Of a stretch of 64,000 bases of DNA, positions 30,418 through 60,987 are shown one piece after another. The stretch's first letter is position 1, and every line of letters starts with the position of its first letter. The translations under genes were made by a program, and so were the position numbers. The stretch is from Burkholderiales bacterium (GTDB lineage: Bacteria; Pseudomonadota; Gammaproteobacteria; Burkholderiales; Burkholderiaceae_C): contig JAECRO010000004.1 in the NCBI GenBank assembly GCA_016000195.1, positions 1 through 64,000 on the forward strand, in the 5' to 3' direction. The notes under the pieces are model-generated. The model searched no databases. It saw only the letters and a program-made list of their open reading frames with translations, and was not told where the DNA came from.

Positions 30418-30433
30418 GGCGTTGGCAAATAGG

Positions 30434-32777: not shown

Positions 32778-32792
32778 GTGGATTGGTCAAAG

Positions 32793-32808: not shown

Positions 32809-32945
32809 CCAGCGCGCAGCGCGCGAACGAAGGCGCAATGGCGCGGCGCGCCGACACGTTTTTTCATGCGCCGCAGAGCCGGAAGCGGCCTTTTCCATGC
32901 TCTCGAATCCCTTCGCGAACAGGCCGGTTCCGGACCTTTTCCGGC

Positions 32946-36169: not shown

Positions 36170-36296
36170 GTGCAGGGCGGTTGTATAAAAATGAAAATCT
36201 TCTTTACAAATGAGAATTTAGTCGTTCCAGTTCTATAGCTCAACCATGAGAATTCAATGCATCGCACTATTGCGTTGCAATTTTCTGGAGCTTTTC

Positions 36297-43744: not shown

Positions 43745-43768
43745 AAAGGGGCAACTCGGTTCGGTAGA

Positions 43769-46700: not shown

Positions 46701-46966
46701 AGGCCGCCCAGCGTCTGGGACTCGGTGTGCTCCATGTCGCTGACTGAGTTGGCCAGGTTGCGCTCGATGGGCGTGGTGATGCGGTTCGTCATCTCCTCGG
46801 CGCTCAGGCCGTTGTAGCTCACCAGGATGGCCACCACCGGGATGTTGATTTCCGGGAACACATCGACGGGCGTCTTGCGCAGCACGAAGGGCGTCGCCAG
46901 CAGGATGAGCAGGGCCGCCACGATGAAGGTATAGGGGCGCCGCAGGGCGACTTGAACAATCCACAT
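43769..46966 (-). CDS. RND efflux pump, inner-membrane transporter
   Basis: A 1065-residue transporter of the HAE/AcrB-like superfamily with twelve membrane segments and two large periplasmic loops. LRKTPVDVFPEINIPVV, the TM4 motif ALAVGILVDDATVEIENV with the proton-relay Asp pair, GRDFFPTVDAGQIRLHV and the late RLRPVLMTALAMVIGMVPMA block are all present. It is the first gene of a three-gene pump operon. Substrate cannot be predicted. Unlike the neighbouring sulfur-responsive proteins it is rich in Met, so it is unlikely to be part of the sulfur-starvation set. Confidence 0.95.
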   Translation of the reverse strand: MWIVQVALRRPYTFIVAALLILLATPFVLRKTPVDVFPEINIPVVAILVSYNGLSAEEMTNRITTPIERNLANSVSDMEHTESQTLGGLGIIKVFFQPQVDQAAAIAQVVASTQASLRSLPAGAQPPTIIKYSATDLPILQLGFSSPVRSVQELNEQAFNVLRTKLITIPGTAVTAPYGGRFRQISIDINGPALAARGLSAIDVVNALQVQNLMLPSGTAKIGGQEIAIALNGSPASIAELGDIPITTVNGATVYVRDVAQVRDGAQAQTNIVRRDGERGLLMTVLKNGGASTLDIIDTIKAELPKALLALPEDITVTPLADQSVFVSAAIKSVVHEALIAAALTAALLLLFLGNWRSTAIIAISIPLSILCSLITLHLIGQSINIMTLGGLALAVGILVDDATVEIENVERHLHLGKTPHQAILDGAAEIATPALVATACICIAFVPLFFLPGVAGKLFMPLAQAVVFAMAASYILSRTLVPTLVMYLMRHQARHGTQAQHQPGRLRRIHLVFDAWFEHFRHGYAVVLAALLQRKALFGSGFMAFALLSSGLYAALGRDFFPTVDAGQIRLHVRAPAGTSLDEMPPFVDKIERRIREVVGAGEVASIVDIVGGPYTPYNTVYNNNGTIDSSDVEIMVALTPDHQPTQGHIRALRETLARDFPGNEFYFQSADMVSQTLNFGLSAPIDIQIQGTKTAENLAVAATLLNQIRQVPGAVDTVLYQRFNRRALQLDMDRSRLAQTGLVARDVAQNVMVSLSSSFQTSPTYWMNPANGSVYNVAVQVPQYDIDSLGAMLGIPVNAPGSNGQPREPQLLGNVVSIKSASQQANVSHYNIAPVIDLYVSVDGRDLASTYADIEKLIVKAREKLPRGSEITVRGQIETLRTAFSSLIWGLALAIVLVYLLLVVNFQSWLDALIIVSGLPAALAGIAWMLYLTGTPLSVPALTGAIMTVGVATANSILVVSFARQRLAEGVPALTAALEAGSTRLRPVLMTALAMVIGMVPMAIGLGEGGEQNAPLGRAVIGGLLFATLSTLVFVPLVFAGVHRRLSARVHLPGASPVEPFPA

Positions 46967-47193: not shown

Positions 47194-47670
47194 TCAATCC
47201 TTCCTGCGGAAGTCGTCGTGGCAGGACTTGCAGGTGCCCTGCACTTTGGCCAGTTGGGCCTTCACCACCGTCAGGTCACCCAGCAGCGCCACGCGGGCCA
47301 GCTCATTGGCTTCCTTGCTGAAGTGGCCGGCGATCTCGCCCGCCTTCGGGTCGGTGAACAGCTCGGGCTTGACGGCGGTTTCCCGCCAGCCCTTGCCGGT
47401 TTCGGTGCCGGGGGCATAGAGCGCACCCAGGCCGGAATTGGCCAGCGCCGCAATCGTGTTGGCGGCCTTGATCACGTCGTCCTTGTTGTACTGGCCATCG
47501 ACATTGGCCTTGACGCGGCCGACGTTCCAGGCCAGAACCTGGTAGGCCGACTGGCGCCACTTGATCAGTTGCTCGGGCTTGGGCGCCTGCTGGGCGATGG
47601 CCGTGGCCGTCGCGGCCAGGGCGCCTATCGACAGCACGGCTGATGCGATCAGTTTGAGAGGTTTGTTCAT
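47194..47670 (-). CDS. Cytochrome c' (class II c-type cytochrome)
   Basis: A 158-residue secreted four-helix-bundle cytochrome with signal peptide (LKLIASAVLSIGALAATATAIA) and the single haem site CKSCH at residues 147-151 near the C-terminus, as in cytochromes c'. The tail CKSCHDDFRRKD is family-typical. It is the last of seven leftward genes. After signal removal it has no Met and only the two haem Cys. Its partner in electron transfer is unknown. Confidence 0.88.
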   Translation of the reverse strand: MNKPLKLIASAVLSIGALAATATAIAQQAPKPEQLIKWRQSAYQVLAWNVGRVKANVDGQYNKDDVIKAANTIAALANSGLGALYAPGTETGKGWRETAVKPELFTDPKAGEIAGHFSKEANELARVALLGDLTVVKAQLAKVQGTCKSCHDDFRRKD

Positions 47671-47756
47671 CTGTTTTCCTTCATTTTTTCTTCGGGGGTT
47701 GGAGAGGCCTGGCGTCAATACCAGGCAGGCGGGGATGGGTTTTGAATCTGGGCGGC

Positions 47757-48761
47757 TTACTTGGCGCGCCCGGCATAACCGGCGGTCAGCACCGGCAGGC
47801 GGTAGGCCGCGCCGCGACCGACGACATACAGGGTCTTTTTGCCCTCGCCGGCAAAGGCCAGGTTCTGCGGTTTTTTCGGCAGGGCGATGCTGCCCAGCGC
47901 CTCGCCCTGGCTGCTGAACACCTCGATGCCCTTGTTGCTGGCCACATAGACGCGGCCCGCCTCGTCCACAGCCAGGCCATCGGCGCCACTGGAGTTGCCG
48001 GTGTCGGTCTTCTGCCAGCCGTCTAATTTGGCAAAGTTGCGGCGCGGCCCCAGCGCGCCGTCGGGCGCGATGTCATAGGCCAGCAGGTGCTCGCCCAGGG
48101 TGTTGGCCACATACAGCACTTTTTCGTCCGGGCTGAGCTGGATACCGTTGGGGCGCTCGATGTCAGCCAGCAGGCGCTTGAGTTCACCCTTGGCCGAGAT
48201 GCGGTAAACCGCAGGCTTGGCTGGCGCGGTCGCCTGCACGGGCGGCGCCGGCTGTCCGGCCGCAGGCGGGTTCACGCCGGAATCGGTGAAATAGACATTC
48301 CCCTTGCTGTCCACCACCAGGTCATTGGGACGGCCAAACGGTGCCCCCTCAAAGTTGTCGGCCAGCACCCTGGCCTTGGGCGGCGGAAAGATGATGCCCA
48401 CGCGCGGTTTGAGTACCTGCACTGCGTACAGGTCGCCGTTGGCGGTGAAGCCCAGCCCATTGGCGCCGTTGCTGCCCTCCACAAAAGTAGAGGTCGAGCC
48501 ATCGGGCGCGATGCGGGTCACGCGGTTGGCCGTGGTCTCGGTGAAGATCAGACTGCCGTCGCTCAAGGCCACCGGACCCTCGGTGCCGGTGAAACCCTCC
48601 CTGATCAGCTCAATCGGGGTTCCCGCCGCCACCACGCCGACAATGGCCGGTGTCACCGCCCCGGAGGGCTCGGGGCTTTGCGCCTGAGCCGCTGCCGAGG
48701 CGAAAGCCCCGGCCACGCTGGCGGCCAGCAGGGCGCGGCAAAGAATGTGTTTTGTCTTCAT
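47757..48761 (-). CDS. Secreted SMP-30/gluconolactonase-like beta-propeller
   Basis: A 334-residue secreted protein (signal ends near AAAQAQ) with the SMP-30/gluconolaconase/LRE propeller: GTEGPVALSDGSLIFTETTAN, GRPNDLVVDSKGNVYFTDSG, ERPNGIQLSPDEKVLYVANT and GADGLAVDEAGRVYVAS. The Glu, Asn and Asp metal ligands of these lactonases appear conserved. It could hydrolyse a lactone or ester, or bind a ligand. The mature protein has neither Met nor Cys. Short gaps of 29 and 86 bases to its neighbours place it in the operon. Confidence 0.85.
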   Translation of the reverse strand: MKTKHILCRALLAASVAGAFASAAAQAQSPEPSGAVTPAIVGVVAAGTPIELIREGFTGTEGPVALSDGSLIFTETTANRVTRIAPDGSTSTFVEGSNGANGLGFTANGDLYAVQVLKPRVGIIFPPPKARVLADNFEGAPFGRPNDLVVDSKGNVYFTDSGVNPPAAGQPAPPVQATAPAKPAVYRISAKGELKRLLADIERPNGIQLSPDEKVLYVANTLGEHLLAYDIAPDGALGPRRNFAKLDGWQKTDTGNSSGADGLAVDEAGRVYVASNKGIEVFSSQGEALGSIALPKKPQNLAFAGEGKKTLYVVGRGAAYRLPVLTAGYAGRAK

Positions 48762-48790
48762 GCGTTCTCCTGTCTTGATGTCCAACAAGT

Positions 48791-49396
48791 TCAGGACTTG
48801 GACGCAGCCGCCCTGGCCGCCAGGCCCTGGACCACTTCCAGCGCCTTCTCGACATTGGCGGCCGGCGTCAGACCGCCCACGGTCGCGGCAATCTTGCCGT
48901 CGGGCGTCACGATGAAGGTGGTGCGCTCCACTCGGGCATGATCGATGTCGGCGCCGCGCGTGTCCTTGCGGCCCGCAGGCGTGTCGCTCACGCTCAGGTC
49001 AAAAGCCTTTGAAACTTTACCCCCGGCATCCGAGGCCACGGCGACCTTGCCGGCGCAATACTCTGGGTCGGCCGAGAAGGTATTGAGCCGCCCGATGTTG
49101 TCGAGCGAGACGCCGATGATGGAAGTGCCCGCTGCCGCGAACTTTTCCGTGTTCACGGCAAAACTGCGAGCCTGAATGTTGCAGCCGCCGGTGTAGGCCG
49201 ACGGGTAGAAATAGACCACCACCGGGCCTTTTTTCAGCGCATCCTTCAGCGAGTAATTGAACTCCTTGCCGGCCAGAGAGGCTTTCAGCTTGAAGTCCGG
49301 CGCCGCATCGCCTTCTTTCAGTGCTGCGGCGGCCGGCAGGGCCAGCAGGGTGGACATGAGCGCGGGCAGGGCCGCCTTGAAAATCCGGTGTTTCAT
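48791..49396 (-). CDS. Periplasmic peroxiredoxin-like protein (AhpC/TSA, Bcp type)
   Basis: A 201-residue secreted thioredoxin-fold protein with signal peptide (ALMSTLLALPAAAALKEGD). The peroxidatic motif YPSAYTGGCNIQARSF has the Thr-x-x-Cys form. A second Cys in PEYCAGK may be a resolving Cys. It would remove peroxide, perhaps made by the oxidative chemistry of the operon, with electrons from a DsbD/ScsB-type donor. It is encoded between cytochrome c4-like and SMP-30-like genes. Confidence 0.85.
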   Translation of the reverse strand: MKHRIFKAALPALMSTLLALPAAAALKEGDAAPDFKLKASLAGKEFNYSLKDALKKGPVVVYFYPSAYTGGCNIQARSFAVNTEKFAAAGTSIIGVSLDNIGRLNTFSADPEYCAGKVAVASDAGGKVSKAFDLSVSDTPAGRKDTRGADIDHARVERTTFIVTPDGKIAATVGGLTPAANVEKALEVVQGLAARAAASKS

Positions 49397-49427
49397 GTTC
49401 GTTCTTTCAGTTCGTTCAAAAAGTGAT

Positions 49428-50111
49428 TCAGATACCCGAGAGGTAATTCGCCAGGGATTCAATGTCGGCGTCGGTCAGCGCCTTGGTGGCCTGGCTCATG
49501 ACGCCGCCATCGCTGTTGCGCCGCTCGCCCGAACGCCAGTCGCGCAGTTGCTGGTCGAGGTAGCGCCATTCCTGTCCGCCTATCACCGGCGCCAGCGGGC
49601 TGGCTGCCAGGCCCTTGCCTTTGACACCATGGCAGCTGCTGCAGGCCACGACGCCACGCGCAGGATCGCCGTTCTCGTACAGCGATTTCCCCAGCGCATG
49701 GCGCTCGCCGTCCTGCGCATTCATGGCCGGCTGGCTGCCGAAATAGGCTGCGATGTCGCGCATGTCCTCGTCGGACACGCTGCGGGCCATGATCTGCATC
49801 TGGTCGTGCTTGCGCGCGCCGGAACGGAAGTCCCGGATCTGCTTGAGGATGTAATCCGGGTACTGACCCGCGAGCTTGGCGAACTTGCCTTCCGGCCCAT
49901 TGGAATGGCCGGCGCCATGGCCGTCCACGCCATGACACTCCATGCAGCGCTCCGATTCGGCCTTCTCGCGGCCCAGTACCGGATCGCCCTTGACGGGCAG
50001 CGACCTGGCCGGCGCCGCATCAGCCGCCCGCGCCTTGCCGGCAGGAGTTGCCGCCATCACAGAGGGCAGCAGGCAGGCCGACACCAGCAGGCTGTAAAAC
50101 AGGATTTTCAC
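49428..50111 (-). CDS. Dihaem cytochrome c4-like protein
   Basis: A 227-residue secreted protein with two class I haem sites, CMECH (56-60) and CSSCH (157-161), each followed by a Met-containing segment suitable for the axial ligand. The two-domain layout with FAKLAGQYPDYILKQIRDFRSGAR repeats (PVIGGQEWRYLDQQLRDWRS in the second half) is that of cytochrome c4. It would carry electrons in the periplasm, for instance to a terminal oxidase. Confidence 0.9.
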   Translation of the reverse strand: MKILFYSLLVSACLLPSVMAATPAGKARAADAAPARSLPVKGDPVLGREKAESERCMECHGVDGHGAGHSNGPEGKFAKLAGQYPDYILKQIRDFRSGARKHDQMQIMARSVSDEDMRDIAAYFGSQPAMNAQDGERHALGKSLYENGDPARGVVACSSCHGVKGKGLAASPLAPVIGGQEWRYLDQQLRDWRSGERRNSDGGVMSQATKALTDADIESLANYLSGI

Positions 50112-50126
50112 AAGCGGTCCTTGACT

Positions 50127-50510
50127 TCAGGACTTCTTGTAGAAGTTGTGGCAAGTCTTGCAGGCCCTGGAGATGTTTCCGGCCAGTTCCGCAGCGTGGT
50201 CAAACTGCTGGGAATCGACTGATTTGACAATCTCGCCGGCCCAGTCCTTGCTCTTCTTGGACAGGTCCACTGCGTCAGCCGCATCGCCCTTGGCCACGAA
50301 ATGTGCCTCCACCTGCGTGAACATACGGTGCAGCTCGGCCGCCTCGGCCTTGCTGCGCTTGGCATCCTTCAGCGCAATGTTGGAGGCCAGGCTCAGGTTG
50401 GTGTCCTCGATGGTCTGCATCAGGTCTGTATCCAGCTCGGCGTCGGCGGCGCGCACCACCCCCGCCAGCAGCATCACCAAGCAGCCCATCACGATCAGCA
50501 TCTTGCGCAT
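50127..50510 (-). CDS. Small c-type cytochrome, c'-like
   Basis: A 127-residue secreted all-helical protein with a C-terminal haem site CKTCH (117-121), resembling a short cytochrome c' or cytochrome b562-like bundle. It lies 15 bases before the c4-like gene. Its length, short of cytochrome c' by about 25 residues, and the separate c' gene at 47194 suggest a specialised partner of the DUF1501/DUF1549 proteins. Confidence 0.8.
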   Translation of the reverse strand: MRKMLIVMGCLVMLLAGVVRAADAELDTDLMQTIEDTNLSLASNIALKDAKRSKAEAAELHRMFTQVEAHFVAKGDAADAVDLSKKSKDWAGEIVKSVDSQQFDHAAELAGNISRACKTCHNFYKKS

Positions 50511-50568
50511 AAAGCAAAAATTCCTTCCAGCGGGGCATCACGCCCCGCTTCTTCAGCTATGTAAACGA

Positions 50569-52020
50569 TCAGGCCAGCAGGTCCTTGACCACCTTGCCAT
50601 ACACCACCGTCGGGCGCTCGGAGCGGCCGTTGTTCAGGAAGGTGGTTTTCATGTGGTCCAGGCCCATCAGGTGCAGGATGGTGGCGTGTAGGTCGTAGGT
50701 GTCCACAGCCTTGTCCTTGTCGGCCGTCTGCAGGCCGATGTCGTCGGTCTCGCCGTAGGTGAGGCCTGCCTTGAGGCCGCCGCCGGCCATCCACTGGGTG
50801 TAGCCCCAGGGGTTGTGGTCGCGCCCGCTGCCGCTCTCGCCCCAGGAGGTGCGGCCAAATTCCGAGGCCCAGACCACCAGCGTGCTGTCTAACAGGCCGC
50901 GCGACTTCAGGTCGGCCAGCAGGCCGGCGATTGGCTTGTCCACCATCTTCGAGAGCAAGCCGTGGTTTTGCTCCAGTTCGTCGTGGGCATCCCAATTGCG
51001 GCGCTCCGAGTCAAGGCTCTGCGGCACGGCCGAGACCACCTGGATGAAGCGCACACCGTTTTCCACTAGGCGGCGCGCGCGCAGCAGCACCTCGCCGTAG
51101 CTCTGGCTGGTCTTGTCGTTCAGGCCGTACATCTCCTTGGTGGCGGCGCTTTCCTTGCTGATATCGACAGCGACGGGCGCGGCGGCCTGCATGCGGTCGG
51201 CCAGTTCGTAGGACTGGATGCGGGCGCGCAGCTCGGTGTCGGACGGATAGCGTTCGGCGCCGGCCGAGTTCAGGCGCTTGAGCAGGTCCAGCGACTTGCG
51301 CTGCTGCTGGGCCGTGCGCAGCTCGGGACGGTCCAGGTACAGGATGGGGGAATCGCCTGGACGGAAGGCCGTTCCCTGGTACACCGCCGGCAAAAAGCCC
51401 GAACTCCAGTTCACCGAGCCGGCCTGGGGCTCGCGGTCGCCGTTGTACAGCACCACATAGGGCGGCAGATCCTTGTTGGCCGAACCCAGTGCATAAGTGA
51501 TCCACGCGCCCAGGGACGGGCGCCCCGGGTTGAGGTCGCCGGTGTTGAGCTTGAGGATCGAGATGTCGTGCGTTGCGCCCACCGTCACGCTGGACTTGAT
51601 GAAGGTCATGTTGTCGGCCTGCTTGGCCAGGTTGGGCAGCAGGTCCGAGAACCAGGCGCCGCTTTGGCCATGCTGCTTCCACTCGCGCTTGGACGCATAC
51701 AGCTTGCCGACCCCCCCTTGGGTACTGGTCTTGATGCCCTTGAGGAAGGAGGCCGGAACCTCCTTGCCGGCCAACTTGATCAGCTCGGGCTTGTAGTCAT
51801 ACAGGTCCAGCGTGCTGGGCGCGCCGTCCTGGTGCAGCCAGATCACCGATTTTATTTTTCCAGGGAAATGCGGCGACTTCAGCGCCAGCGGATCGACCAG
51901 ATCGGCCGCATGGGCGGCAGAAAAGCTGCCCAACCCCGGTATCACACCGCTCAGGGCGGCGGCGCCACCGAGGTACACTCCGGATTTGCGAAGAAAGTCG
52001 CGGCGGGAATCATGGCTCAT
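50569..52020 (-). CDS. DUF1501 secreted protein with Tat signal
   Basis: A 482-residue DUF1501 protein. The Tat signal is SRRDFLRKSGVYLGG with cleavage near AHA, suggesting export in a folded state with a metal or cofactor. DUF1501 proteins belong to the alkaline phosphatase/sulfatase-like fold. IWLHQDGAPSTLDLYDYKPE, WVVWASEFGRTSWGE-type (VVWASEFGRTSWGE) and GLDHMKTTF are recognisable. They are very common in Planctomycetes next to DUF1549/DUF1553 proteins, as here, and have no established reaction. It contains no Cys. An upstream GGAGAT RBS supports the ATG at 52020. A sulfatase-like or sulfonate-related role is a hypothesis from context. Confidence 0.85.
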   Translation of the reverse strand: MSHDSRRDFLRKSGVYLGGAAALSGVIPGLGSFSAAHAADLVDPLALKSPHFPGKIKSVIWLHQDGAPSTLDLYDYKPELIKLAGKEVPASFLKGIKTSTQGGVGKLYASKREWKQHGQSGAWFSDLLPNLAKQADNMTFIKSSVTVGATHDISILKLNTGDLNPGRPSLGAWITYALGSANKDLPPYVVLYNGDREPQAGSVNWSSGFLPAVYQGTAFRPGDSPILYLDRPELRTAQQQRKSLDLLKRLNSAGAERYPSDTELRARIQSYELADRMQAAAPVAVDISKESAATKEMYGLNDKTSQSYGEVLLRARRLVENGVRFIQVVSAVPQSLDSERRNWDAHDELEQNHGLLSKMVDKPIAGLLADLKSRGLLDSTLVVWASEFGRTSWGESGSGRDHNPWGYTQWMAGGGLKAGLTYGETDDIGLQTADKDKAVDTYDLHATILHLMGLDHMKTTFLNNGRSERPTVVYGKVVKDLLA

Positions 52021-52057
52021 GGGAATCTCCTTGTCGTTTGTCAGTAATGGTTGATGG

Positions 52058-54406
52058 TCAGAAGCGGTAGGCGAACTCGTTGGAATTGGCGACGGTGTGA
52101 ACCAGATCGACAAACGCTGCGGACTTCACCGGGTCAAATTTCGTGGTGTCCTTCAGGCCGGAGGGCACGGCCACCTCGAACTTGCCGTTGGCCGCCTTGT
52201 GCTGGACCACGATCTTTTGCTCGGCCAGGAAAGACTTGAGCGCGAGGCGCTCGGTCTGGTTGGGCTCGCGTGAGTACAGGATCTGGTAGAGCCGGTTGAT
52301 CTGCGCCGTCTCGTCGCCGCCCGCCTCGTTGATCACGCGGCCGGCCAGGGCCTGCGACCAGTCGAACACCACCTCGCTGTTGAACAGCGTCAACGCCTGC
52401 AACGCCGTGGTCGTCACATCGCGCTTGTGGTGCGGCTGGTTCGGGTTGGCCGGGTCGAAGTTCTGCGTGATCGGGTAGCTGAAGCTGCGGCGCGTGAAGA
52501 TGTAGAGGCTGCGGCGGTTCCAGTCTTCCTTGTCGGTCGAAACAGCCCAGACGCGGTTGCCCTGGAAATCCTCCGCCTTGCCCACCACGTCGCCGGTCTT
52601 GACCACCGGCGGGAACACGGAAGGGCCACCGACCTTGTCGCTCAGCAGGCCCGAGGCATACAGCAGCGAGTCGCGGATCACCTCGGCTTCCAGGCGCTTG
52701 CGCGGATAGAAGGCCAGCAGCTTGTTTTCCGGATCGGCCTTGACCACGTCCAGGCGCTCGTCGGACGACTGGCGATAGACGCTGGACAGCAGGATTTCGC
52801 GGTGCAGCTTCTTGACGCTCCAGCCGTTTTTCACGAAGTTGGTGGCCAGGTAGTCGAGCAGCTCGGGGTTCGTCGGCTTGGTTCCAGCGCGGCCGAAGTC
52901 CTGCACCGTGGAGATGATGCCCTTGTCGAAGTACTGCGCCCAGACGCGATTCGCATAAACGCGCGCCGTCAGCGGGTTGCTGTCGCTGCTCAGCCAGTTG
53001 GCCAGCGCCGTGCGCCTGCCCGATGAGCTTGCGGTCGGCGTGATCGCCACTTCACCCTTGCCGCCCCACAGCGCGGGAATGGCCGGCTGCACGGCTTCGA
53101 GCGGGCGCTCGTGGATGCCGCCGAAGCGCACATGGGTGGGCGGCACTTCTTTGGTCAGTTCCAGCGCGGCGGTGAACTGGCTCGACCCCTTGGCCGGCTT
53201 GATCTTGTCGAACTGCTTGAGTTCTTCCCGCAGGGCCTTGTAGGTCTTCCACTTCTCTGCGTTGTCGGGGTTGTAGTAAACAACGCTCGGTTTCGTGCCA
53301 CTGTCTTCCAGATAGCTTGCGATTTCATTGTCGGTCGCCACAGCCTGCTTGCGCCAGTTGACCCAGCGGTCCAGCGGCGTCCACTGCGCCTCGGGCTTGA
53401 AGATCGCCTCGCGGCTGTCGGTCAGGTAACGCTCGTTGTAGTACTTGCGTCCGGCCTCGCGCACAGTGTCGAGAATGGCCTTTTGCTTGGCGCGTATGTC
53501 CTTGGTAGCCTCCTGGTAAGCCGCCTGCTGCTGCTCGTAGGCCTTGTCCCATTCGGTTTCAGTGCCCTTGGCCAGCGGCGTCTGCTCATTGAAAGCCGTG
53601 TTGGCCAGGAAGGCCTGCAATTGAAAATATTCCTTCTGGCTGACCTTGTCGGACTTGTGGTTGTGGCAGCGCGCGCAACCGACGGTGGCGGCCAGGAAGG
53701 TCTCGCCCACCAGGTCGGTCATGTCGGTCTCGATCTGGTACTTGCGCTGCACCAGGTCGCGCGAGTTGCGGTTGTCGGGGTAGCCGGCCAGGAAGCCGGT
53801 GGCAATCCTGGCGTCCTGGCTTTCTGGCCAGAGTTCGTCGCCGGCCACCTGCTCCTGAATGAAGCGGCTGAATGGCCGGTCCTGGTTGAAGGCCTTGATC
53901 ACATAGTCGCGGTAGCGCCAGTTGTTCGGACGGGTGTTGTCGTTCTGAAAACCCGTGCTGTCGGCGTAGCGCGCCAGATCGAGCCAGCGCCGCGCCTGCC
54001 GCTCGCCATAGTGCGGCGAGGCCAGCAGGCGGTCAGCCAGCTTTTCATAGGCCGTGGGCGACTTGTCGGCCACGAAGGTTTTGACCTCTTCGGGCGTTGG
54101 CAAGAGTCCCCAGGCGTCCAGCGTGGCGCGCCGGATGAAGGTGGCCCGGTCAGCCTCCTTCGAGGGCTTGAGGCCCTTGGCTTCGAGCTGGGACAGCACG
54201 AAAGCGTCGATGGGCGTGCGCACCCAGGCCTTTTGCCTGACCTCGGGCGCCTGCGGCGCCTGCACCGGCTGGTAGGCCGACCAGGCCTTGGGCGCCGCTC
54301 CTTGCGCGGACCTGGCCGCGTCAACGACCGCCTGGGTCTGCGCCAGCACTGCAGGCCCAGCCAGAACGCCGAGCATGACTGACAGATATATCGCCTTGTT
54401 CTTCAT
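52058..54406 (-). CDS. DUF1549/DUF1553 secreted protein (planctomycete-type PSD1)
   Basis: A 782-residue secreted protein with an N-terminal signal (AIYLSVMLGVLAGPAVLAQ), DUF1549 (about 60-270, including the conserved CARCHNHK with Cys244, Cys247 and His248) and DUF1553 (about 440-720, TALANWLSSDSNPLTARVYA and RRSLYIFTRRSFSYP). The PSCyt1 cytochrome domain often found in front of DUF1549 is missing, but separate cytochromes are encoded in the operon. CARCH could bind haem or another metal. The mature protein has a single Met and only those two Cys in about 760 residues, strongly suggesting selection for low sulfur. First gene of the operon, under a sigma-54-type promoter. Function unknown. 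Confidence 0.85.
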   Translation of the reverse strand: MKNKAIYLSVMLGVLAGPAVLAQTQAVVDAARSAQGAAPKAWSAYQPVQAPQAPEVRQKAWVRTPIDAFVLSQLEAKGLKPSKEADRATFIRRATLDAWGLLPTPEEVKTFVADKSPTAYEKLADRLLASPHYGERQARRWLDLARYADSTGFQNDNTRPNNWRYRDYVIKAFNQDRPFSRFIQEQVAGDELWPESQDARIATGFLAGYPDNRNSRDLVQRKYQIETDMTDLVGETFLAATVGCARCHNHKSDKVSQKEYFQLQAFLANTAFNEQTPLAKGTETEWDKAYEQQQAAYQEATKDIRAKQKAILDTVREAGRKYYNERYLTDSREAIFKPEAQWTPLDRWVNWRKQAVATDNEIASYLEDSGTKPSVVYYNPDNAEKWKTYKALREELKQFDKIKPAKGSSQFTAALELTKEVPPTHVRFGGIHERPLEAVQPAIPALWGGKGEVAITPTASSSGRRTALANWLSSDSNPLTARVYANRVWAQYFDKGIISTVQDFGRAGTKPTNPELLDYLATNFVKNGWSVKKLHREILLSSVYRQSSDERLDVVKADPENKLLAFYPRKRLEAEVIRDSLLYASGLLSDKVGGPSVFPPVVKTGDVVGKAEDFQGNRVWAVSTDKEDWNRRSLYIFTRRSFSYPITQNFDPANPNQPHHKRDVTTTALQALTLFNSEVVFDWSQALAGRVINEAGGDETAQINRLYQILYSREPNQTERLALKSFLAEQKIVVQHKAANGKFEVAVPSGLKDTTKFDPVKSAAFVDLVHTVANSNEFAYRF

Positions 54407-54562
54407 TACCGTGTACCCCAAAAAACATAAATCGATTTATGCATTTACTTACTCCATTTGCGAGCGCAAGCCCATGCCTTTTTCAAATGCCACCACTCGT
54501 CCGCGACACACACACAAAAGAGCGTGCAGACAGATGAAAAATGGCAAATCCGAAGAAGCAAT

Positions 54563-54580
54563 ATGCAACCATCATGCCAA
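54563..54580 (-). promoter_or_regulatory. Sigma-54-type promoter of the DUF1549/DUF1553 operon
   Basis: Minus strand TTGGCATGATGGTTGCAT: GG and GC exactly ten bases apart and an almost perfect match to TTGGCAC-N5-TTGCA. Transcription would start near 54553, leaving a leader of about 145 bases. Confidence 0.75.
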
Positions 54581-54630
54581 CCAACAATCACTCTTGAAAT
54601 AAACAAAAATTACACATAACTCATTGTTTT

Positions 54631-54655
54631 AAATGAATATTTTTTTATTTCATTT
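54631..54655. promoter_or_regulatory. AT-rich inverted repeat between the divergent promoters
   Basis: AAATGAA and TTCATTT arms with an 11-base AT spacer. It could be an operator or an architectural (for example IHF-like) bend site between enhancer and promoter. No protein can be assigned. Confidence 0.35.
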
Positions 54656-54704
54656 GAATATTTAATATTTAACTAAAACAATATCAAGCATCAATGACGA
54701 GGCC

Positions 54705-54720
54705 TGCCTGAATATCAACA
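54705..54720. promoter_or_regulatory. Possible SfnR-type enhancer site of the divergent operons
   Basis: TGCCT-GAATAT-CAACA keeps one full half of the TGTTN-N6-CAACA pattern. A second TGAATCTCAACAG lies 23 bases further, forming a direct repeat of TGAATMTCAACAG. The first site is about 75-90 bases before the rightward promoter. Confidence 0.35.
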
Positions 54721-54792
54721 GGCCAATAGCTTGAATCTCAACAGTGCCGTTAAATAATCAGCACAAATAGGTAAAAACCCATCAAAAAAGCA

Positions 54793-54809
54793 TGGCATAA
54801 ATCCTGCTA
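54793..54809 (+). promoter_or_regulatory. Sigma-54-type promoter of the porin-importer operon
   Basis: TGGCATAAATCCTGCTA with GG (54794-54795) and GC (54806-54807) ten bases apart. Transcription would start near 54819, 40 bases before the porin GTG. Confidence 0.72.
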
Positions 54810-54858
54810 AATCTTGCCGGTAAATCATTTTCCAGCCACCAAAGAAGGGTTATTCAAG

Positions 54859-56373
54859 GTGCCATCTTTTAAAACAACAGCGCTGGCCACGGCCGTGCTG
54901 CTCGCTTTGTCGAGTGGTGCGGTGCAGGCGCAGGCGCAGCCAGCCAATGAAATCCAGTCCCTGAAGGGCACCGTCGAGGATCTTCGCAAGCAGTTGGAGG
55001 AACTGCGCGGATTGATACAGCAACGGGGCGCTGTCGCGCCAGCGCCGGGTGGCGCCACCGCCGCCAGCGCAGGGGAAAGCCAGGAGTCCGTTGATGCCCG
55101 GACGGCGGCGACCAAGGCCGACATCCAGGGCATGCGCACCGACCTGGAGAACTACAAGTACGACCAGTCGCGCCTGCAGGAGCGCAACATCCCCAGCGTG
55201 ACGCGCAACACCAAGATCGGTGGCTCGGTCACGGTCCGCTACGACATCCAGAATCCGGAGGCGCCGCCGTCGAGCGCCTCCAGCGGCTTCGGTCCGACCG
55301 ACCCGCGCCACAGGGGTTTCAACGCCTCGGCCTTCGGCCTGAACTTTGCCGGCAACCTCTACCGCGACTACGCTGAAGGCCGCAACCTCACCTACCGCCT
55401 GGCCCTGACCAGCCAGAACACCGCCAGCAGTTCATCGACCAGCGTCAACCTGACCGATGCCTATCTGCGCTACAGCTTCCAGCCGGCATCGGGCAATGCG
55501 GAAGATCCGCTGGGCACCATCACCCTGGGCCAGCAAACCGTGCCCTTCGGGCAGGACGCACAGGCGCAGGATCCTGAAGTCAAGGCTGTCATTGGCAACG
55601 CGGGCTTCGTCTCCGGCCTGGGCCTGAACACGCGCCAGACGGGCCTGGTCCTTTCCGGCGATTACGACCCCTATGTCGATTTCACCAACAACTACCGCGC
55701 GCCCTTGCTGGCCTACTCGCTGGGTTTCTTCAATGGCAATGGCGCCAACAAGGCCGACAACAACAACTACATCGACACCGTCGGCCGCTTGGTCTATACG
55801 CTGCCGGTGGACTACAGCAGCTGGCTGCGTCAGTTGCAGATTGGCGGCTCCTACTACCGCGGATACACGTCGCTCGGCACGGCCAGCACCACGGCCACCA
55901 CCGCCGCCACCAGCAAAGGCCATAACAATCGTTACGGCATGGACGTCAACTGGACCCATTTACCCTATTCGGTTGCCTACGAGCGGGCCTATGGCAAACA
56001 GGAGCTGCTGGCTGCCACAGCCGCGAACCCCGACCGCTACCAGCGCGGCATGGGCCAGTACATCAACTTCGGCTACACCTGGGGCGAGCAGTTCCTCGCC
56101 AGCTCCAGGCAGCAGGGCAAGTTTGACGACTACTGGCCGAAGTCCTTCCAGACCTTCATCCGGTTTGACGAGTGGGATCCCAACCGCAGCGGCTCTGTCG
56201 TCAATGACAAGCAATTCGTCACCACGCTGGGCCTGAATGTGTTTTTTGCTGAAACCACCAAGTTCCAGATCAACTACCTGCACATCCGCAACCAACTCGG
56301 CGGCGCTGCGCCGACGGCGGCCCGACCGGCTTCGGTCAACGCCATCCAGGCCCTGCTGAACGCCACGTTCTAA
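54859..56373 (+). CDS. Outer-membrane porin with coiled-coil stalk
   Basis: About 504 residues with signal peptide (FKTTALATAVLLALSSGAVQAQA), a short coiled coil (EIQSLKGTVEDLRKQLEELR, about 30-55), a linker, and an approximately 370-residue beta-barrel rich in alternating aromatic strands ending in Phe, as in putative phosphate-selective or sulfate-starvation porins. GTG at 54859 is chosen because AAGAAGGG lies at the right distance and the signal peptide begins there. An in-frame ATG-type start at 54814 would add an unlikely 15 residues. It has four Met and no Cys. First gene of the operon with the SsuABC-like importer. Confidence 0.85.
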   Translation: MPSFKTTALATAVLLALSSGAVQAQAQPANEIQSLKGTVEDLRKQLEELRGLIQQRGAVAPAPGGATAASAGESQESVDARTAATKADIQGMRTDLENYKYDQSRLQERNIPSVTRNTKIGGSVTVRYDIQNPEAPPSSASSGFGPTDPRHRGFNASAFGLNFAGNLYRDYAEGRNLTYRLALTSQNTASSSSTSVNLTDAYLRYSFQPASGNAEDPLGTITLGQQTVPFGQDAQAQDPEVKAVIGNAGFVSGLGLNTRQTGLVLSGDYDPYVDFTNNYRAPLLAYSLGFFNGNGANKADNNNYIDTVGRLVYTLPVDYSSWLRQLQIGGSYYRGYTSLGTASTTATTAATSKGHNNRYGMDVNWTHLPYSVAYERAYGKQELLAATAANPDRYQRGMGQYINFGYTWGEQFLASSRQQGKFDDYWPKSFQTFIRFDEWDPNRSGSVVNDKQFVTTLGLNVFFAETTKFQINYLHIRNQLGGAAPTAARPASVNAIQALLNATF

Positions 56374-56400
56374 CCCCCACATCGACTCCGGAGTACCCCC

Positions 56401-57489
56401 ATGAAACGTCGCTTATTCAATTCAACCCTGCTTGCCGGGCTGGGCGCCCCCGCCCTCATCGGCCTGGGCGGCCAGGCCCGCGCGGCTGGCAAACCCACCA
56501 CCATCCGCATCGGTTTCCCCGGTGCCGGTACCGGCGGTCGTCCTTTGCCCACCTCGGGCTTTCCCGCCAATTCGGTCTTCCGCGGCGAGATCGAACAGGA
56601 ATTCGCAGCAGAGGGCATCAAGATCGAGTGGAAATATTTTGTCGGCGCCGGCCCGGCCCTCAATGAGTCCTATGCCAACGGCCTGCTGGACTTCTGCTTC
56701 GGCCACGGCGACCTGCCGCTGATCGTCGGCCGCTCGACCGGCCTGAAGCACAAGATCCTGCTGTCATCGGGCCGGGGCGGTGACGTGTACGTGGTGACAC
56801 CGGCATCGTCTCCTGCCAAGTCGGTCGCTGACCTCAAGGGTAAGACGCTGTCGGTGCAAAAAGGCACGGCAGGCCAGCTGACGCTGTACCGCGTGCTGGC
56901 CAAGTACGGCTTCAACGATCCGGAAAAAGAGTTCCGCATCATCAGCCAGATCCGCGACGACCGCGTGGCCTCTCTGGCCACGGGCGACATTGCCGGCGCC
57001 ATCGAATCCCCGTTCGGCCTAGAGGCGCGCGGCGTGGCCAAGCGCGTGGCCGAAATCTTCGACGATCCGGCCATCAACGCACCCGGCTCGGTCTGGGTGG
57101 GCGAGGCCTTTGAGCAGCAGTACCCGGACATCGTGCAGCGCATCGTGACCCGCCTGGTGAAGGTGGCGCACTGGAGCACCCAGGAAGCCAACCGCGAGAC
57201 GCAGTACCAGCTGTGGACACGCTCGGGTACGAGCACCTACATCGACAACAAAAACAGCTGGGACCGCGTCAAGGATCTGCGCACGCGCATCAACCCGCTG
57301 CTGGACGACTACTACCTGGCGGCCATCAACAAGTCCATCGAGGAAACCAAGAAGTACAAGCTGACCCGCAGGCCGGTCAGCCTGGACGGCTGGATCGAAC
57401 GCAAGTACCTCAACAACGCCCTGCGCGAGCTGAAGCTGGAGAACTACTGGCCCACGCAGGACGCGGCGGGCAAGTTCATCGCGGCCTGA
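56401..57489 (+). CDS. Sulfonate-type ABC binding protein (SsuA-like) 2
   Basis: A 362-residue periplasmic binding protein with a signal peptide (NSTLLAGLGAPALIGLGGQA) and the SsuA/TauA fold: IRIGFPGAGTGGRPLPTSGF, LDFCFGHGDLPLIVGRST and KTLSVQKGTAGQLTLYRVLA. The mature part has one Cys and no Met. It is a distant relative of the binding protein at 15938 and pairs with two permeases. The ligand is unknown; alkanesulfonates, sulfate esters or a sulfur-containing product of the secreted enzymes are possible. Confidence 0.85.
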   Translation: MKRRLFNSTLLAGLGAPALIGLGGQARAAGKPTTIRIGFPGAGTGGRPLPTSGFPANSVFRGEIEQEFAAEGIKIEWKYFVGAGPALNESYANGLLDFCFGHGDLPLIVGRSTGLKHKILLSSGRGGDVYVVTPASSPAKSVADLKGKTLSVQKGTAGQLTLYRVLAKYGFNDPEKEFRIISQIRDDRVASLATGDIAGAIESPFGLEARGVAKRVAEIFDDPAINAPGSVWVGEAFEQQYPDIVQRIVTRLVKVAHWSTQEANRETQYQLWTRSGTSTYIDNKNSWDRVKDLRTRINPLLDDYYLAAINKSIEETKKYKLTRRPVSLDGWIERKYLNNALRELKLENYWPTQDAAGKFIAA

Positions 57490-57564
57490 AGAGCCAAGCC
57501 CCGAAGCGAATCGGCCATCGGCGCCCAGCCGGTGGCCATCTGACAACCCACTGGAGTCAGTGCC

Positions 57565-58428
57565 ATGAGCGCATCCACCGCCGATATCAACGTCTTTCCT
57601 GTTTCCTTTGCGCGAGCCGAATCGGCCCGCTGGCATCGGCATGCGCTGGGTGCCGCCAAGGCCGGCCTGAAGGCAGCGCACACGCTGCTGCTCGGCCTGA
57701 TCCTGCCCGTCTTGCTGTTTGCGCTGTGGTGGATCGCCACCGAGCACCACTGGGTGGCCGAGCAGATATTGCCGCCACCGGCTTTCGTCTGGGACTCGCT
57801 CAAAGATGTGCTGGCATCGGGCGAGTTGCAGGGCCATGTCATGTTCAGCGCCGCGCGCGTTGCCTGGAGCCTGCTGATCGGCGGCTCGGTGGGATTGCTG
57901 CTGGGCTTTGGCATGGGCCTGTCACGCACTTTCAAGGCTTACGTTTTTCCCACCTTCGATGTGCTGGCCCAGTTGCCGGTTCTGGGCTGGATTCCGCTGC
58001 TGATCATCTTTGTCGGCATCGAGGAGCCCCTGAAAGTGACCGCCGTGTCCATCGCGGTGGTCGTTCCGGTGGCATTGAGCACGCTCAGCGGCATTGCCAA
58101 CATTCCGCAGGCCCTGCTCGAAGTCGGGCGGGTTTACCAGTTCAGCGCTTTGCAGACCATCCGCCGCATCGTGCTGCCCGCCGCCGCGCCCAGCCTGTTC
58201 ACCGGCCTGCGCCAGGGCGTGATGCAGGCCTGGATTTCCGTCATCTTTGTCGAGCTGCTCTCGTCCAGCGAAGGGCTGGGCTTTTTCATGGCCTACAGCC
58301 GCTCGCTCAGCCAGATCGACATGGTGATCGTGGCCATGCTGGCCATCGGCGTGGTTGGCATCGTCATCGAACTGGGCCTGCGCCTGATTGAGTCGCGCCT
58401 GCAAGGCTGGCGCCGTTCGGCTTTTTGA
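57565..58428 (+). CDS. ABC permease, SsuC-like (first of two)
   Basis: A 287-residue BPD-type permease with six membrane segments. The coupling loop LLEVGRVYQFSALQTIRRIVLPAAAP is intact. A GCCATG start follows a 75-base gap from the binding protein gene with little else in it. A second different permease follows after 15 bases, so the channel is probably a heterodimer. Confidence 0.88.
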   Translation: MSASTADINVFPVSFARAESARWHRHALGAAKAGLKAAHTLLLGLILPVLLFALWWIATEHHWVAEQILPPPAFVWDSLKDVLASGELQGHVMFSAARVAWSLLIGGSVGLLLGFGMGLSRTFKAYVFPTFDVLAQLPVLGWIPLLIIFVGIEEPLKVTAVSIAVVVPVALSTLSGIANIPQALLEVGRVYQFSALQTIRRIVLPAAAPSLFTGLRQGVMQAWISVIFVELLSSSEGLGFFMAYSRSLSQIDMVIVAMLAIGVVGIVIELGLRLIESRLQGWRRSAF

Positions 58429-58443
58429 CTGCAAGCAAACACC

Positions 58444-59262
58444 ATGTCCGATACCGCACCCCTTGTTTCCGCCGGCATCTCATCGGCCACATCAGACAGC
58501 AAAACCGCCTTCGATTGGCGTGGGCTGGTGTTGCCCATCGCCTTCGTGATCGTCTGGTACGCCGTCACTGCGCTTGAGCTGGTCAACACCAAACTGATCG
58601 TGCCGCCCGCCGGCGTCGTGGCCCAGGGCCTGAAAGAGCTGGCCAATGGCAGTTTTTACCTCGGCATCGGCCTGAGCCTGTGGCGCGACCTGTCCGGCTT
58701 CACGCTGGGCGCGCTCGCTGGCATCGCCGTGGGCGCGCTGATCGGCGTCTCGCACCTGGCCGACAAGGTCATCGGCCCGACGTTTCACACCGCGCGCCAG
58801 ATCTCGCTGTTTGCCTGGCTGCCGTTGCTGTCGGCGCTGGTGGGCACGGGTGAGCTGTCCAAGATCATCTTCATCGGTTTTTCGGCTTTTTACCCGGTGG
58901 TGCTGGGCACGCTCGAAGGCGTGCGCGGCGTGAGCAAGGCGCATGCCGAAGTCGCCCGTGTCTATGGCTTCACCCCGGCGCAGGTGTTCTTCAGGCTGAT
59001 CCTGTCGGCCGCCTCGCCGCAAATCCTGGCCGGGCTGCGCCTGGGCCTGATCTACGCCTGGCTGGCCACCATCGGCGCGGAGTACCTGCTGGTCAACGAC
59101 GGACAGGGCATTGGCAACATCGTCTTCAAGGGCCGCATGGCCTTCAACGTGGAATTGATCATCTTTGGCCTGCTGGCCATCGGCCTGGTCGGCAACGTAT
59201 TCAACCGCATCGCGGCCGTGGCCGAGCGCCGCCTGCTGCGCTGGCGCGCCCCGGCTCGCTGA
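58444..59262 (+). CDS. ABC permease, SsuC-like (second of two)
   Basis: A 272-residue permease of the same family, with the coupling loop AEVARVYGFTPAQVFFRLILSAA. It differs enough from the first that the pair looks ancient rather than a recent duplication. The usual SsuC/TauC importers use one permease gene. Confidence 0.88.
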   Translation: MSDTAPLVSAGISSATSDSKTAFDWRGLVLPIAFVIVWYAVTALELVNTKLIVPPAGVVAQGLKELANGSFYLGIGLSLWRDLSGFTLGALAGIAVGALIGVSHLADKVIGPTFHTARQISLFAWLPLLSALVGTGELSKIIFIGFSAFYPVVLGTLEGVRGVSKAHAEVARVYGFTPAQVFFRLILSAASPQILAGLRLGLIYAWLATIGAEYLLVNDGQGIGNIVFKGRMAFNVELIIFGLLAIGLVGNVFNRIAAVAERRLLRWRAPAR

Positions 59263-59322
59263 GCCCTGCCTTCTTCTCATGCCCATGCTGTCACATTCAC
59301 CTTTTTTGAAAGAAGCCCCGCC

Positions 59323-60120
59323 ATGCCCCAAGCCGGCACCATCGAGATCAAAAACCTCAACAAGTATTACGAAGTCAAGGGCCAGCCGCTCAAGGTTCTG
59401 GAAAACATTTCCCTGTCCATCCGGCCCGGCGAATTCATCAGCATCGTCGGCTCCAGCGGCTGCGGCAAATCGACGCTGCTGCGCCTGCTGATCGGACTGG
59501 AGAGCGGCTACGAAGGCCAGATACTGCTGGACGGAAAACCCATCACCGGCACCAGCCTGGAGCGAGGCATTGTGTTCCAGGAGCACCGGCTCTTCCCCTG
59601 GCTCACGGCCGAACAGAACGTCAGCCTGGGCCTGCTCAACGCGCCCGGCACGCAGGCTGCCAAGAACAAGAGCGTGCAGGAACACATCAATCTGGTGGGC
59701 CTGAAGGGCTTCGAGAAAGCCTATCCCTACCAGTTGTCCGGCGGCATGTCGCAACGCGTGGCGATTGCCCGCGCGCTGGTCAATCGCCCGGAAGTATTGC
59801 TGCTCGACGAGCCGTTCGGCGCCCTGGACGCCCTGACGCGCTCGCACCTGCAGCAGGAGCTGCAACGCATCTGGCAGGCTGAAGGCATCACCGCCATCCT
59901 GGTGACGCACGATGTCGAGGAGGCCGTCTTCCTGGGCGACCGCATCGTGGTGATGCAGCCGCGCCCCGGCCGCATCAAGCGCATCGTCGATGTGCCGCTG
60001 GCGCGCACGCGCGAGCGTGGCAGCTACGACTTCGCCGCCATCAAGGACGACGTTCTGGGCGAGTTCAGCCACGAGCCGCGCGCCCCAGACCCTGCCACGG
60101 CCTTGGCGCTTGCAGCCTGA
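59323..60120 (+). CDS. ABC ATPase, SsuB/TauB-like
   Basis: A 265-residue ATPase: Walker A GSSGCGKST, Q-loop GIVFQEHRLFPWLTAEQN, signature LSGGMSQRVAIARAL, Walker B VLLLDEPFGAL, switch LVTHDVEEA. The FQEHRLFPW form is that of the sulfonate/nitrate/taurine subfamily. It energises the two-permease importer. Confidence 0.92.
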   Translation: MPQAGTIEIKNLNKYYEVKGQPLKVLENISLSIRPGEFISIVGSSGCGKSTLLRLLIGLESGYEGQILLDGKPITGTSLERGIVFQEHRLFPWLTAEQNVSLGLLNAPGTQAAKNKSVQEHINLVGLKGFEKAYPYQLSGGMSQRVAIARALVNRPEVLLLDEPFGALDALTRSHLQQELQRIWQAEGITAILVTHDVEEAVFLGDRIVVMQPRPGRIKRIVDVPLARTRERGSYDFAAIKDDVLGEFSHEPRAPDPATALALAA

Positions 60121-60188
60121 TGGATCCGCCCGCTTTTTCTCCCCCACCTTCAACCTCAACCCTTTCCTTCTTCTGAAGACAAGCGCCC

Positions 60189-60935
60189 ATGACTCCTTCT
60201 TTCAAGACTTCCCCATTCAAGGCATCCAAAGCGCGCACTGTCGCCTGGGTGTTCGCTGCCGTGGCAGCCGTCCCGCTGTTCGCACTGGCCCAATCGGCCA
60301 GTCCTCCTCCTCCGGCCCCGGTGTCAGCCGCTGAAGCGGCCAAACTCTTCAGCTTTTTCATCACCAGCCAAGGCGCCGGCAAGGGTGCCGACCTCGGTGG
60401 TCTGGCGGGAGCCGACGCCCATTGCCAGAAGCTGGCCAGCGCCGTTGGCGCGGGCAACAAGACCTGGCACGCCTACCTGAGCACCCAGGCCAGCGGCGGC
60501 CAGGCAGCCGTCAATGCACGCGACCGGATCGGCCATGGCCCCTGGTACAACACCCGTGGCGCGGTGGTGGCCAAGGATCTGGTCCATCTCCATGGCGACA
60601 CCCTGGAGACGGCGCGCCTGGGCAACAACCTGAGCTGGGCCACGGCCTTTTCTGAAAAGAATGAGCCCGTCAAGCGCGCGGGCGACAAGCCCAACGAGCA
60701 CGACATCCTGACCGGCTCGCAGCCCGACGGGCGCGCCTACACCGACGACGCGGACCACACCTGCAAAAACTACACCAGCAGCGCAGCCGATGGCTCCGCG
60801 CAATTGGGCCACTTTGACCGCACGGGCGGCGGCAACACGTCGTGGAATTCGACGCACCGCAGCCGGGGTTGCGGACAGGACAACCTGGTGAGCACCGGCG
60901 GCGCGGGCCTGCTTTACTGCTTTGCCGTGAATTGA
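60189..60935 (+). CDS. Secreted lectin-like/endostatin-like domain protein
   Basis: A 248-residue exported protein with signal peptide (VAWVFAAVAAVPLFALAQ) and a domain starting FFITSQGAGKGADLGGLAGADAHCQKLAS. The pattern of GADxHC, NNLSWATAF, YTDDADHTCKNYTSS and the final CGQDN with LYCFAVN suggests a C-type-lectin or endostatin-like fold with two disulfides (four Cys). Such proteins are annotated as lectin or DUF1554-like in related bacteria without known ligand. It is the last gene of the porin-importer unit and is followed by a terminator. There is no Met after the start. Confidence 0.65.
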   Translation: MTPSFKTSPFKASKARTVAWVFAAVAAVPLFALAQSASPPPPAPVSAAEAAKLFSFFITSQGAGKGADLGGLAGADAHCQKLASAVGAGNKTWHAYLSTQASGGQAAVNARDRIGHGPWYNTRGAVVAKDLVHLHGDTLETARLGNNLSWATAFSEKNEPVKRAGDKPNEHDILTGSQPDGRAYTDDADHTCKNYTSSAADGSAQLGHFDRTGGGNTSWNSTHRSRGCGQDNLVSTGGAGLLYCFAVN

Positions 60936-60954
60936 GAGAAGGGGGAGCCTCGCA

Positions 60955-60987
60955 GGCCCGGCGACCGCAAGGCGCCGGGCCTTTTTT
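60955..60987 (+). terminator. Strong intrinsic terminator of the porin-importer operon
   Basis: A perfect nine-base GC stem (GGCCCGGCG and CGCCGGGCC, nine-base loop) followed by six T, 20 bases after the lectin-like gene. Confidence 0.88.

Follow-up and report, generated by a model that had tools for sequence, protein, structure and literature searches.

A divergent pair of redox and importer operons

Within a 64,000-nt stretch of Burkholderiales bacterium DNA (GenBank assembly GCA_016000195.1, contig JAECRO010000004.1, positions 1 to 64,000; hereinafter designated the window), we analyzed two divergent operons, one for a set of redox proteins and one for a porin and an ABC importer. The redox operon comprises seven leftward genes (54406-47194, minus strand), separated by ~15-90 bases with the starts chosen here. 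The first gene (52058..54406, likely start ATG 54406) encodes a protein with fused PSCyt2 (DUF1549) and PSD1 (DUF1553) domains (Pfam PF07583, 272 bits; PF07587, 298.9 bits; hereinafter PSD1) and a single CXXCH haem-c motif, CARCH, which is invariant across 26 aligned rows. It is followed by a DUF1501 protein (50569..52020; Pfam PF07394, 444 bits vs a gathering score of 27) that lacks Cys and begins with a Tat-type twin-arginine sequence, RRDFLRK. Downstream lie a small c'-like cytochrome with a CKTCH motif and no Pfam match (50127..50510), a dihaem c4-like cytochrome c with two Pfam Cytochrom_C stretches (49428..50111), a peroxiredoxin (Prx; 48791..49396; AhpC-TSA, 84 bits), an SMP-30/gluconolactonase-like protein (SGL; 47757..48761; Pfam SGL, 139 bits) and a cytochrome c' (47194..47670; Cytochrom_C_2, 97 bits). 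A terminator-like hairpin (47183-47163) follows the cytochrome c' gene, and such hairpins are no commoner than in shuffled sequence (10 found, 13.4 expected).

The importer operon, on the plus strand, starts with a porin-like outer-membrane protein (54814..56373, start TTG 54814 or GTG 54859), which has no Pfam match and is named from the look of its sequence. Next comes an SsuA-like substrate-binding protein (SBP; 56401..57489) that matches NCBIfam SsuA_fam below its cut-off and whose closest solved relative is PDB 3uif, deposited as SsuA (E 2.9e-36). Two permeases (perm1, 57565..58428; perm2, 58444..59262; both Pfam BPD_transp_1), an ATPase (59323..60120; ABC_tran, 128.5 bits) and a LenA/DUF1554-like, lectin-like protein (60189..60935) that looks secreted complete the operon; both matches of the lectin-like protein are weak and under cut-off. 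An earlier, sequence-only reading of the window had described the leftward genes as encoding only secreted proteins and proposed that the two operons form a sulfur-scavenging system. Profile searches and sequence inspection bear out its gene content, order, strands and coordinates, with secretion judged by eye from the N-termini.

Sigma-54 elements and a palindrome at the promoters

Both start regions carry near-perfect sigma-54-type -24/-12 elements, as that reading had proposed. The element of the redox operon, TGGCATGATGGTTGCA (54564..54579, minus strand), is the sole full score (15/15) on either strand of the window, and that of the importer operon, TGGCATAAATCCTGCT (54793..54808, plus strand), scores 14/15. 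We then compared 34 loci from one scan of genome contigs, annotated by tblastn with the window and neighbour proteins; all were found via PSD1, which is therefore present in 34/34 by construction, and because cut loci are counted, gene tallies are lower bounds. In 26 of 32 loci, a sigma-54 score of at least 14/15 is reached in the 300 bp upstream of PSD1 (0.37 expected); two loci had too short an upstream sequence to be counted. Before the porin gene, a score of at least 13.5 is reached in 16 of 17 relatives, against 0.24 expected. Expectations come from first-order Markov shuffles, and the GG-N10-GC scoring weights are our own.

A palindrome, approximately GTGTTGA-N4-TCAACAC, occurs upstream of the sigma-54 sites with at most three mismatches in 30 of 51 promoters, against 0.7/51 expected for a fixed pattern, a value that takes no account of the pattern being derived from the same promoter pool. 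Since divergent promoters overlap, we also counted by locus, by eye, and found it in 17/30. Related enhancer-like palindromes lie upstream of the sigma-54 sites of two sulfur genes in the window, sfnG (CTGTTG-N6-CAACAG, 18916..18933) and ssuD (GTGTTG-N6-CAACAC, 32792..32809); these sites are not fully independent of the pattern, as five window promoters were in the pool from which it was derived. Three perfect copies of the inner form, TGTTG-N6-CAACA, are present in the window's own genome (3.09 Mb); two precede sfnG and ssuD and the third lies within a 393-aa ORF. In relative G061, two of three palindromes lie within ~160 bp of strong sigma-54 elements, one before a dienelactone hydrolase (DLH) homologue and one before a cupin gene. 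The palindromes of G401 (six), G424 (one) and, in part, G024 (three of five) show no match to the query genes.

The cupin-like gene of G061 (L068:874-1377, minus strand) is itself preceded by a sigma-54 element that reaches full score and by a perfect copy of the palindrome, and adjoins an arylsulfotransferase-like gene and DUF6607.

Sparing of methionine and cysteine

Several of the proteins had been called nearly free of Met and Cys. This is clear for PSD1 (1/757 residues outside the haem motif), SGL (0/309), the porin (3/479), the SBP (1/337) and perm2 (1/247), and the depletion of cytochrome c' (0/133) is marginal. Pooled, the 13 cluster proteins contain 36 Met and Cys in 3925 residues, vs 89.3 expected from 13 control proteins of the window that we picked ourselves, leaving out the sulfur enzymes and two efflux-pump proteins described below, and vs 60.8 expected from the median of 286 other locus ORFs, a set that may contain false ORFs. 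The two pump proteins, a membrane fusion protein (MFP) and an outer-membrane factor (OMF), are likewise poor in Met and Cys (0.25 and 0.60%).

The depletion extends to relatives. With haem motifs and the 25 N-terminal residues of every called ORF set aside, the Met and Cys content of PSD1 is 0.13-0.53% in 26 rows (the window and 25 of the 34 loci, full-length ORFs only, with near copies L016 and L039 omitted), compared with 1.72, 1.77, 1.83, 1.91 and 2.64% in five outside homologues from Saccharobesus, Singulisphaera (two), Haliscomenobacter and Catenovulum. DUF1501 contains 0.22-1.61% in 29 rows (the window and 28 of the 34 loci) vs 2.41-3.72% in four outside homologues. The ranges hardly shift when over-long ORF starts are trimmed (PSD1, 0.13-0.53%; DUF1501, 0.22-1.53%).

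Sulfur genes around the operons

The sulfur setting is stronger than the sequence-only reading could see. On the plus strand of the window lie genes for the dimethylsulfone monooxygenase SfnG (19060..20205; TIGR04021, 633 vs a cut-off of 383), an SfnB family protein (27000..28253; TIGR04022, 625 vs 431), the alkanesulfonate monooxygenase SsuD (33002..34216; TIGR03565, 607 vs 518) and a sulfate-binding protein (36246..37322; TIGR00971, 453.8 vs 155.5). CysK (35091-36080) is likewise above its curated cut-off, while two SfnB/DszC-like proteins (25638-26936 and 30434-31621) and SsuC/SsuB-like proteins (16935-18598) score below theirs. A Family 2A encapsulin shell (12636-13568, plus strand) and its cargo cysteine desulfurase (13577-15622, plus strand) are both above curated cut-offs; work on a cyanobacterium reports that such a pair is induced by sulfate starvation (PMC8049743).

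Two sigma-54 activators are also encoded. One (37376..38554, plus strand; Sigma54_activat, 229 bits, residues 24-187) has no N-terminal sensor domain and is putatively SfnR-like; the other (29314..30570) has its Sigma54_activat domain near the N-terminus. Homologues of the first activator and of the sulfate-binding protein are found in 18 and 10 of the 34 loci, respectively, and cysK and a serine acetyltransferase gene lie near the module in L036. As judged from sequence, control of the redox module by sulfur starvation is well supported.

A rare module with a conserved redox core

An even draw of 398 Pseudomonadota genomes contained PF07587 in two. The window's PSD1 has matches in seven of the 399 genomes drawn evenly from the order, and in four among 61 closer relatives (three full-length, of 37 same-genus genomes, and one weak fragment). 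All three counts include the own genome. The module is thus rare and patchy, even within the genus. An identical PSD1 occurs in the same-genus genome G024, the next nearest is from a Polaromonas metagenome-assembled genome (89%), and the module is also found in cultured species such as Aquabacterium commune DSM 11901 and Massilia kyonggiensis JCM 19189.

Where PSD1 occurs, DUF1501 and Prx accompany it in all 34 loci, the c'-like and c4-like cytochromes in 33 and cytochrome c' in 27. Less constant partners are a rhodanese-like protein (25), cytochrome b561 (23), SGL (17), DLH (17) and the porin (17). The even draw of the order is less biased than the contig scan, whose peptide patterns favour close relatives; its six loci, own genome excluded, all contain PSD1, DUF1501, the c'-like protein, Prx and cytochrome c', and five of the six contain c4 and SGL. 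One of them, L049, apparently is the Derxia contig L026 of the 34. The expected linkage of the DUF1501-DUF1549/DUF1553 pair to both cytochromes and Ssu-type transporters is therefore only partly borne out: the cytochromes are conserved, and the importer is found in 15/34 loci and 1/6 even-draw loci.

In the window's own genome, the b561 and rhodanese-like genes lie just beyond the window (L058:3432-4733, minus strand). Pfam confirms the b561. The rhodanese-like protein itself matches no Pfam family and takes its name from a 57% likeness to an L015 protein whose Rhodanese match is itself below cut-off (20.1 vs 22.2 bits). Fifteen such ORFs of relatives (cluster C10, e.g. L015:3623-4114) have signal-like N-termini. 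Rhodaneses act through an active-site Cys motif, which is missing where the protein has no Cys; as 14 of these 15 rows are Cys-free, we dropped a catalytic sulfur-transfer role for the protein.

Alternative uptake routes

The importer (SBP and permeases) never shares a locus with the TonB receptor, which is found in 12 of the 34 loci (one match weak, L045, 28%) and in 3/6 even-draw loci. Mapped onto the PSD1 tree, the importer requires three changes of label, at least two of them forced; the window was labelled as importer-bearing for this purpose, as were two cut loci with only the porin (L013 and L020). The uptake route thus looks interchangeable between importer and TonB receptor, and we rejected the importer as a defining feature of the system. 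The lectin-like gene, part of the importer operon in the window, has homologues in 25/34 loci, of which 24 lie on the redox side and one (L040) 8.5 kb off, so that it probably belongs to the system.

The proposed catalytic pair and a candidate mechanism

DUF1501 weakly resembles the sulfatase/alkaline phosphatase fold. Its best profile match to sulfatases has an E-value of 0.0088, and Foldseek listed 547 matches with E-values of up to 10, of which a single one is below E 0.001, while the TM-scores of the best 50 of the 547 do not exceed 0.35; we take this weak structural result only as agreement with the profile matches. S1 sulfatases carry a formylglycine/nucleophile motif, C/S-x-P/A-x-R. It was not found in the DUF1501 protein proper in any of 29 rows, the only two [CS]x[PA]xR matches lying 27-28 residues upstream of the start Met in over-long ORF calls. 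From window residue 26 onward the protein is Cys-free in 28 of the 29 rows, with one Cys in the other, and the sulfatase SDNG stretch is replaced by SEFG. Because the nucleophile motif is absent, we do not call DUF1501 a sulfatase. Searches with the PSD1 sequence against the PDB gave no significant match (a single match in each, E 0.62 and 0.37).

We propose that the operons encode a sulfur-starvation-induced periplasmic redox module that oxidizes an external organosulfur compound, a reading of the sequence to which we assign a probability of roughly 0.5. Sulfate limitation would lead an SfnR-type activator and sigma-54 to turn on the divergent operons, as their sites and gene setting suggest. 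The organosulfur substrate would enter through the porin, or through the TonB receptor in other species, and be oxidized by a catalytic pair formed by DUF1501 and the haem-c protein PSD1. Electrons might then pass to the c'-like protein, cytochrome c', the dihaem cytochrome and cytochrome b561, and on to the respiratory chain, with peroxide being removed by the peroxiredoxin. The SMP-30-type lactonase or DLH may open an oxidized, lactone-like product, after which a sulfur-bearing product would be imported by the Ssu-type transporter, or freed sulfate captured by the sulfate-binding protein. Which substrate reacts, by what reaction and in which direction, and where the electrons go are all inferred. 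Our first guess at the substrate is a sugar-like compound bearing a sulfate or sulfonate group; in the sulfur loci the core is often accompanied by lactone-type hydrolases (SGL, DLH), as would be expected if a ring sugar were oxidized at C1. More tentatively still, and with doubt outweighing confidence, DUF1501 and PSD1 could constitute a new class of two-subunit periplasmic enzyme that oxidatively opens or desulfurizes sulfur-bearing sugars.

Evidence against the proposal and rival explanations

A number of observations weigh against the proposed oxidation of an organosulfur compound. To our knowledge, neither catalytic family has a known reaction, and the AlphaFold models are poor (DUF1501, mean pLDDT 53.7, pTM 0.64; PSD1, mean pLDDT 58.4, pTM 0.38), probably because the alignments are shallow and close. 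Within the window, Met and Cys are not significantly low in Prx, c4, the c'-like protein, DUF1501, perm1, the ATPase or the lectin-like protein. In three of the 32 loci, the best sigma-54 score in the 300 bp next to PSD1 stays below 13, and the window's own divergent promoter region contains only a degenerate copy of the palindrome, with four mismatches. Genome-wide, the palindrome is not enriched (3 vs 3 for the control in the own genome, 15 vs 15 in six relatives), so that its position stands and its enrichment does not. The importer SBP falls below the SsuA_fam cut-off (92.7 vs 163.5 bits). No importer was seen in 19 of the 34 loci, some of them truncated; as several loci end at contig ends, absences of importer or TonB receptor are not firm. 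Cytochrome b561 could also feed electrons inward, which would make the reaction reductive or oxygen-activating.

A further such point comes from the nearest outside relative found, a plasmid locus of Saccharobesus litoralis whose PSD1 is 53.8% identical. It holds the minimal core seen outside Burkholderiales (PSD1, DUF1501, c'-like, cytochrome c' and cytochrome b), set between GH88 genes and a pectate lyase gene in a pectin-degradation locus that also has a TonB receptor gene, and 0 of its 15 listed genes are annotated as sulfur-related; the core chemistry therefore need not be sulfur-specific. This locus argues for a core enzyme that is linked to cytochromes and coupled to the quinone pool, with a substrate that may be carbohydrate-like. 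The module could oxidize a carbohydrate such as a uronate for carbon or energy and be merely placed under sulfur-starvation control in this lineage, the sulfur link residing in freed or neighbouring compounds and not in the reaction itself. The lactonase-type partners would suit such a role, and in freshwater Verrucomicrobia sulfatase genes are reported to be often close to PSCyt genes, some of which carry carbohydrate-binding modules (PMC5615132). The promoter elements, the near-total loss of Met and Cys from PSD1 and the sulfur genes of the same loci are better explained by proteins made during sulfur shortage, and we consider the carbohydrate explanation rather unlikely.

The sulfatase likeness of DUF1501 raises the prospect of a desulfating system, in which DUF1501 would be a sulfatase-like hydrolase freeing sulfate from esters and the cytochromes would serve a separate step. 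The sulfate-binding protein in 10 loci is consistent with this, as is the presence close to the module of sulfatase relatives (below cut-off) in L035 and L040 and, in L040, of an arylsulfotransferase. The near absence of Cys, the missing [CS]x[PA]xR motif and the SEFG stretch all argue against hydrolysis of the sulfatase type, making this route improbable. Slightly less probable again is a periplasmic antioxidant or electron-sink set in sulfur-poor form, which would protect the starved cell rather than feed it. The presence of Prx in every locus would fit, and cytochrome c' can bind NO; antioxidant enzymes such as LsfA and Ohr are described as rising in sulfur-starved Pseudomonas aeruginosa (PMC12581299). 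A protective set leaves the porin or TonB receptor, the importer and the lactonases unexplained, as well as the DUF1501/PSD1 pairing kept in 34/34 loci, a count in which only the DUF1501 half is a test since all loci were found by PSD1.

Other neighbouring genes

Between the SfnR-like activator and the redox operon lie a DsbD-like protein (38648..40828, plus strand; in 4/34 loci) and an RND efflux pump (40908..46966, minus strand), consisting of the RND protein (43769-46966; ACR_tran, 686 bits), the MFP (42470-43744) and the OMF (40908-42473). Both are possible partners of the module. An RND homologue is found in 10/34 loci, one of them weak (L045, 26%), and in 2/6 even-draw loci; in L051 and L052, a homologous pump lies divergent from PSD1. 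On the other side, cytochrome c maturation genes (CcmF, CcmH-type TPR and Redoxin/DsbE-like; 61106-63969, minus strand) adjoin the module, with a CcmF homologue in 9/34 relatives.

The sulfur island is flanked by two defence systems. QatB, QatC and QatD of the Qat anti-phage system occupy the left edge of the window (672-3606, plus strand) and exceed their curated cut-offs, and the anti-phage protein Avs3a (AVAST type 3; 3000 vs a cut-off of 2800 bits) is encoded just past its right side (L058:7070-13501, plus strand; G000:C70 ~71070-77501).

Significance and comparison with known systems

Rhodopirellula baltica has 41 copies each of the PSD1 and PSC2 domains, according to one study (PMC2754498), and a 2017 paper states that nothing was known of PSCyt gene functions (PMC5615132). 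We found no paper in the open-licence literature searched that names both DUF1501 and DUF1553, and our claim of novelty is limited to that scope. Here the pair belongs to a small, regulated setting in a proteobacterium, and its physiological cue, a shortage of sulfur, is clear; an open planctomycete question thereby becomes one that a simple growth experiment can address. If the scavenging proposal is true, it adds a periplasmic, cytochrome-linked route for organosulfur compounds beside the known cytoplasmic flavin monooxygenases; if the two-subunit enzyme exists, its physiological role here would provide a first handle on families found dozens of times per model planctomycete genome.

The PSCyt2/PSD1-DUF1501 pairs of Planctomycetota and Verrucomicrobiota place the same families next to each other, as on a Singulisphaera plasmid. 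In contrast to those pairs, the one described here combines near-zero Met and Cys with cytochrome and Prx partners and sigma-54 elements, and its PSD1 is shorter (782 aa vs 815-1125 aa in the Singulisphaera, Haliscomenobacter and Catenovulum copies). The Saccharobesus locus shares the relative order of the redox core as well as homologous DUF1501 (65% by BLASTP with the sulfur-locus proteins), c'-like (37%) and cytochrome b/b561 (36%) proteins, whereas its cytochrome c' shares only the Pfam family, with no BLASTP match at E 0.001; it differs in its GH88, pectate lyase and TonB receptor genes and in its higher Met and Cys content. The DUF1501 likeness to S1 sulfatases and the alkaline phosphatase superfamily is a weak fold and profile match without the Cys/Ser nucleophile motif and with SEFG for SDNG.

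Like SsuABC and AtsRBC, the importer has an SsuA-like SBP, permeases and an ATPase, but its two permease genes are separate and its SBP lies under the SsuA cut-off; in AtsRBC-SftP uptake of sulfate esters, a fused double permease works with the TonB receptor SftP. A regulatory parallel is the Pseudomonas sfn/msu/ssu regulon, controlled by SfnR and sigma-54, to which the window corresponds in its sigma-54 elements, its sensorless activator and its sfnG, sfnB and ssuD genes. The enzymes of that regulon are cytoplasmic flavin monooxygenases, whereas those of the module described here look periplasmic and cytochrome-linked.

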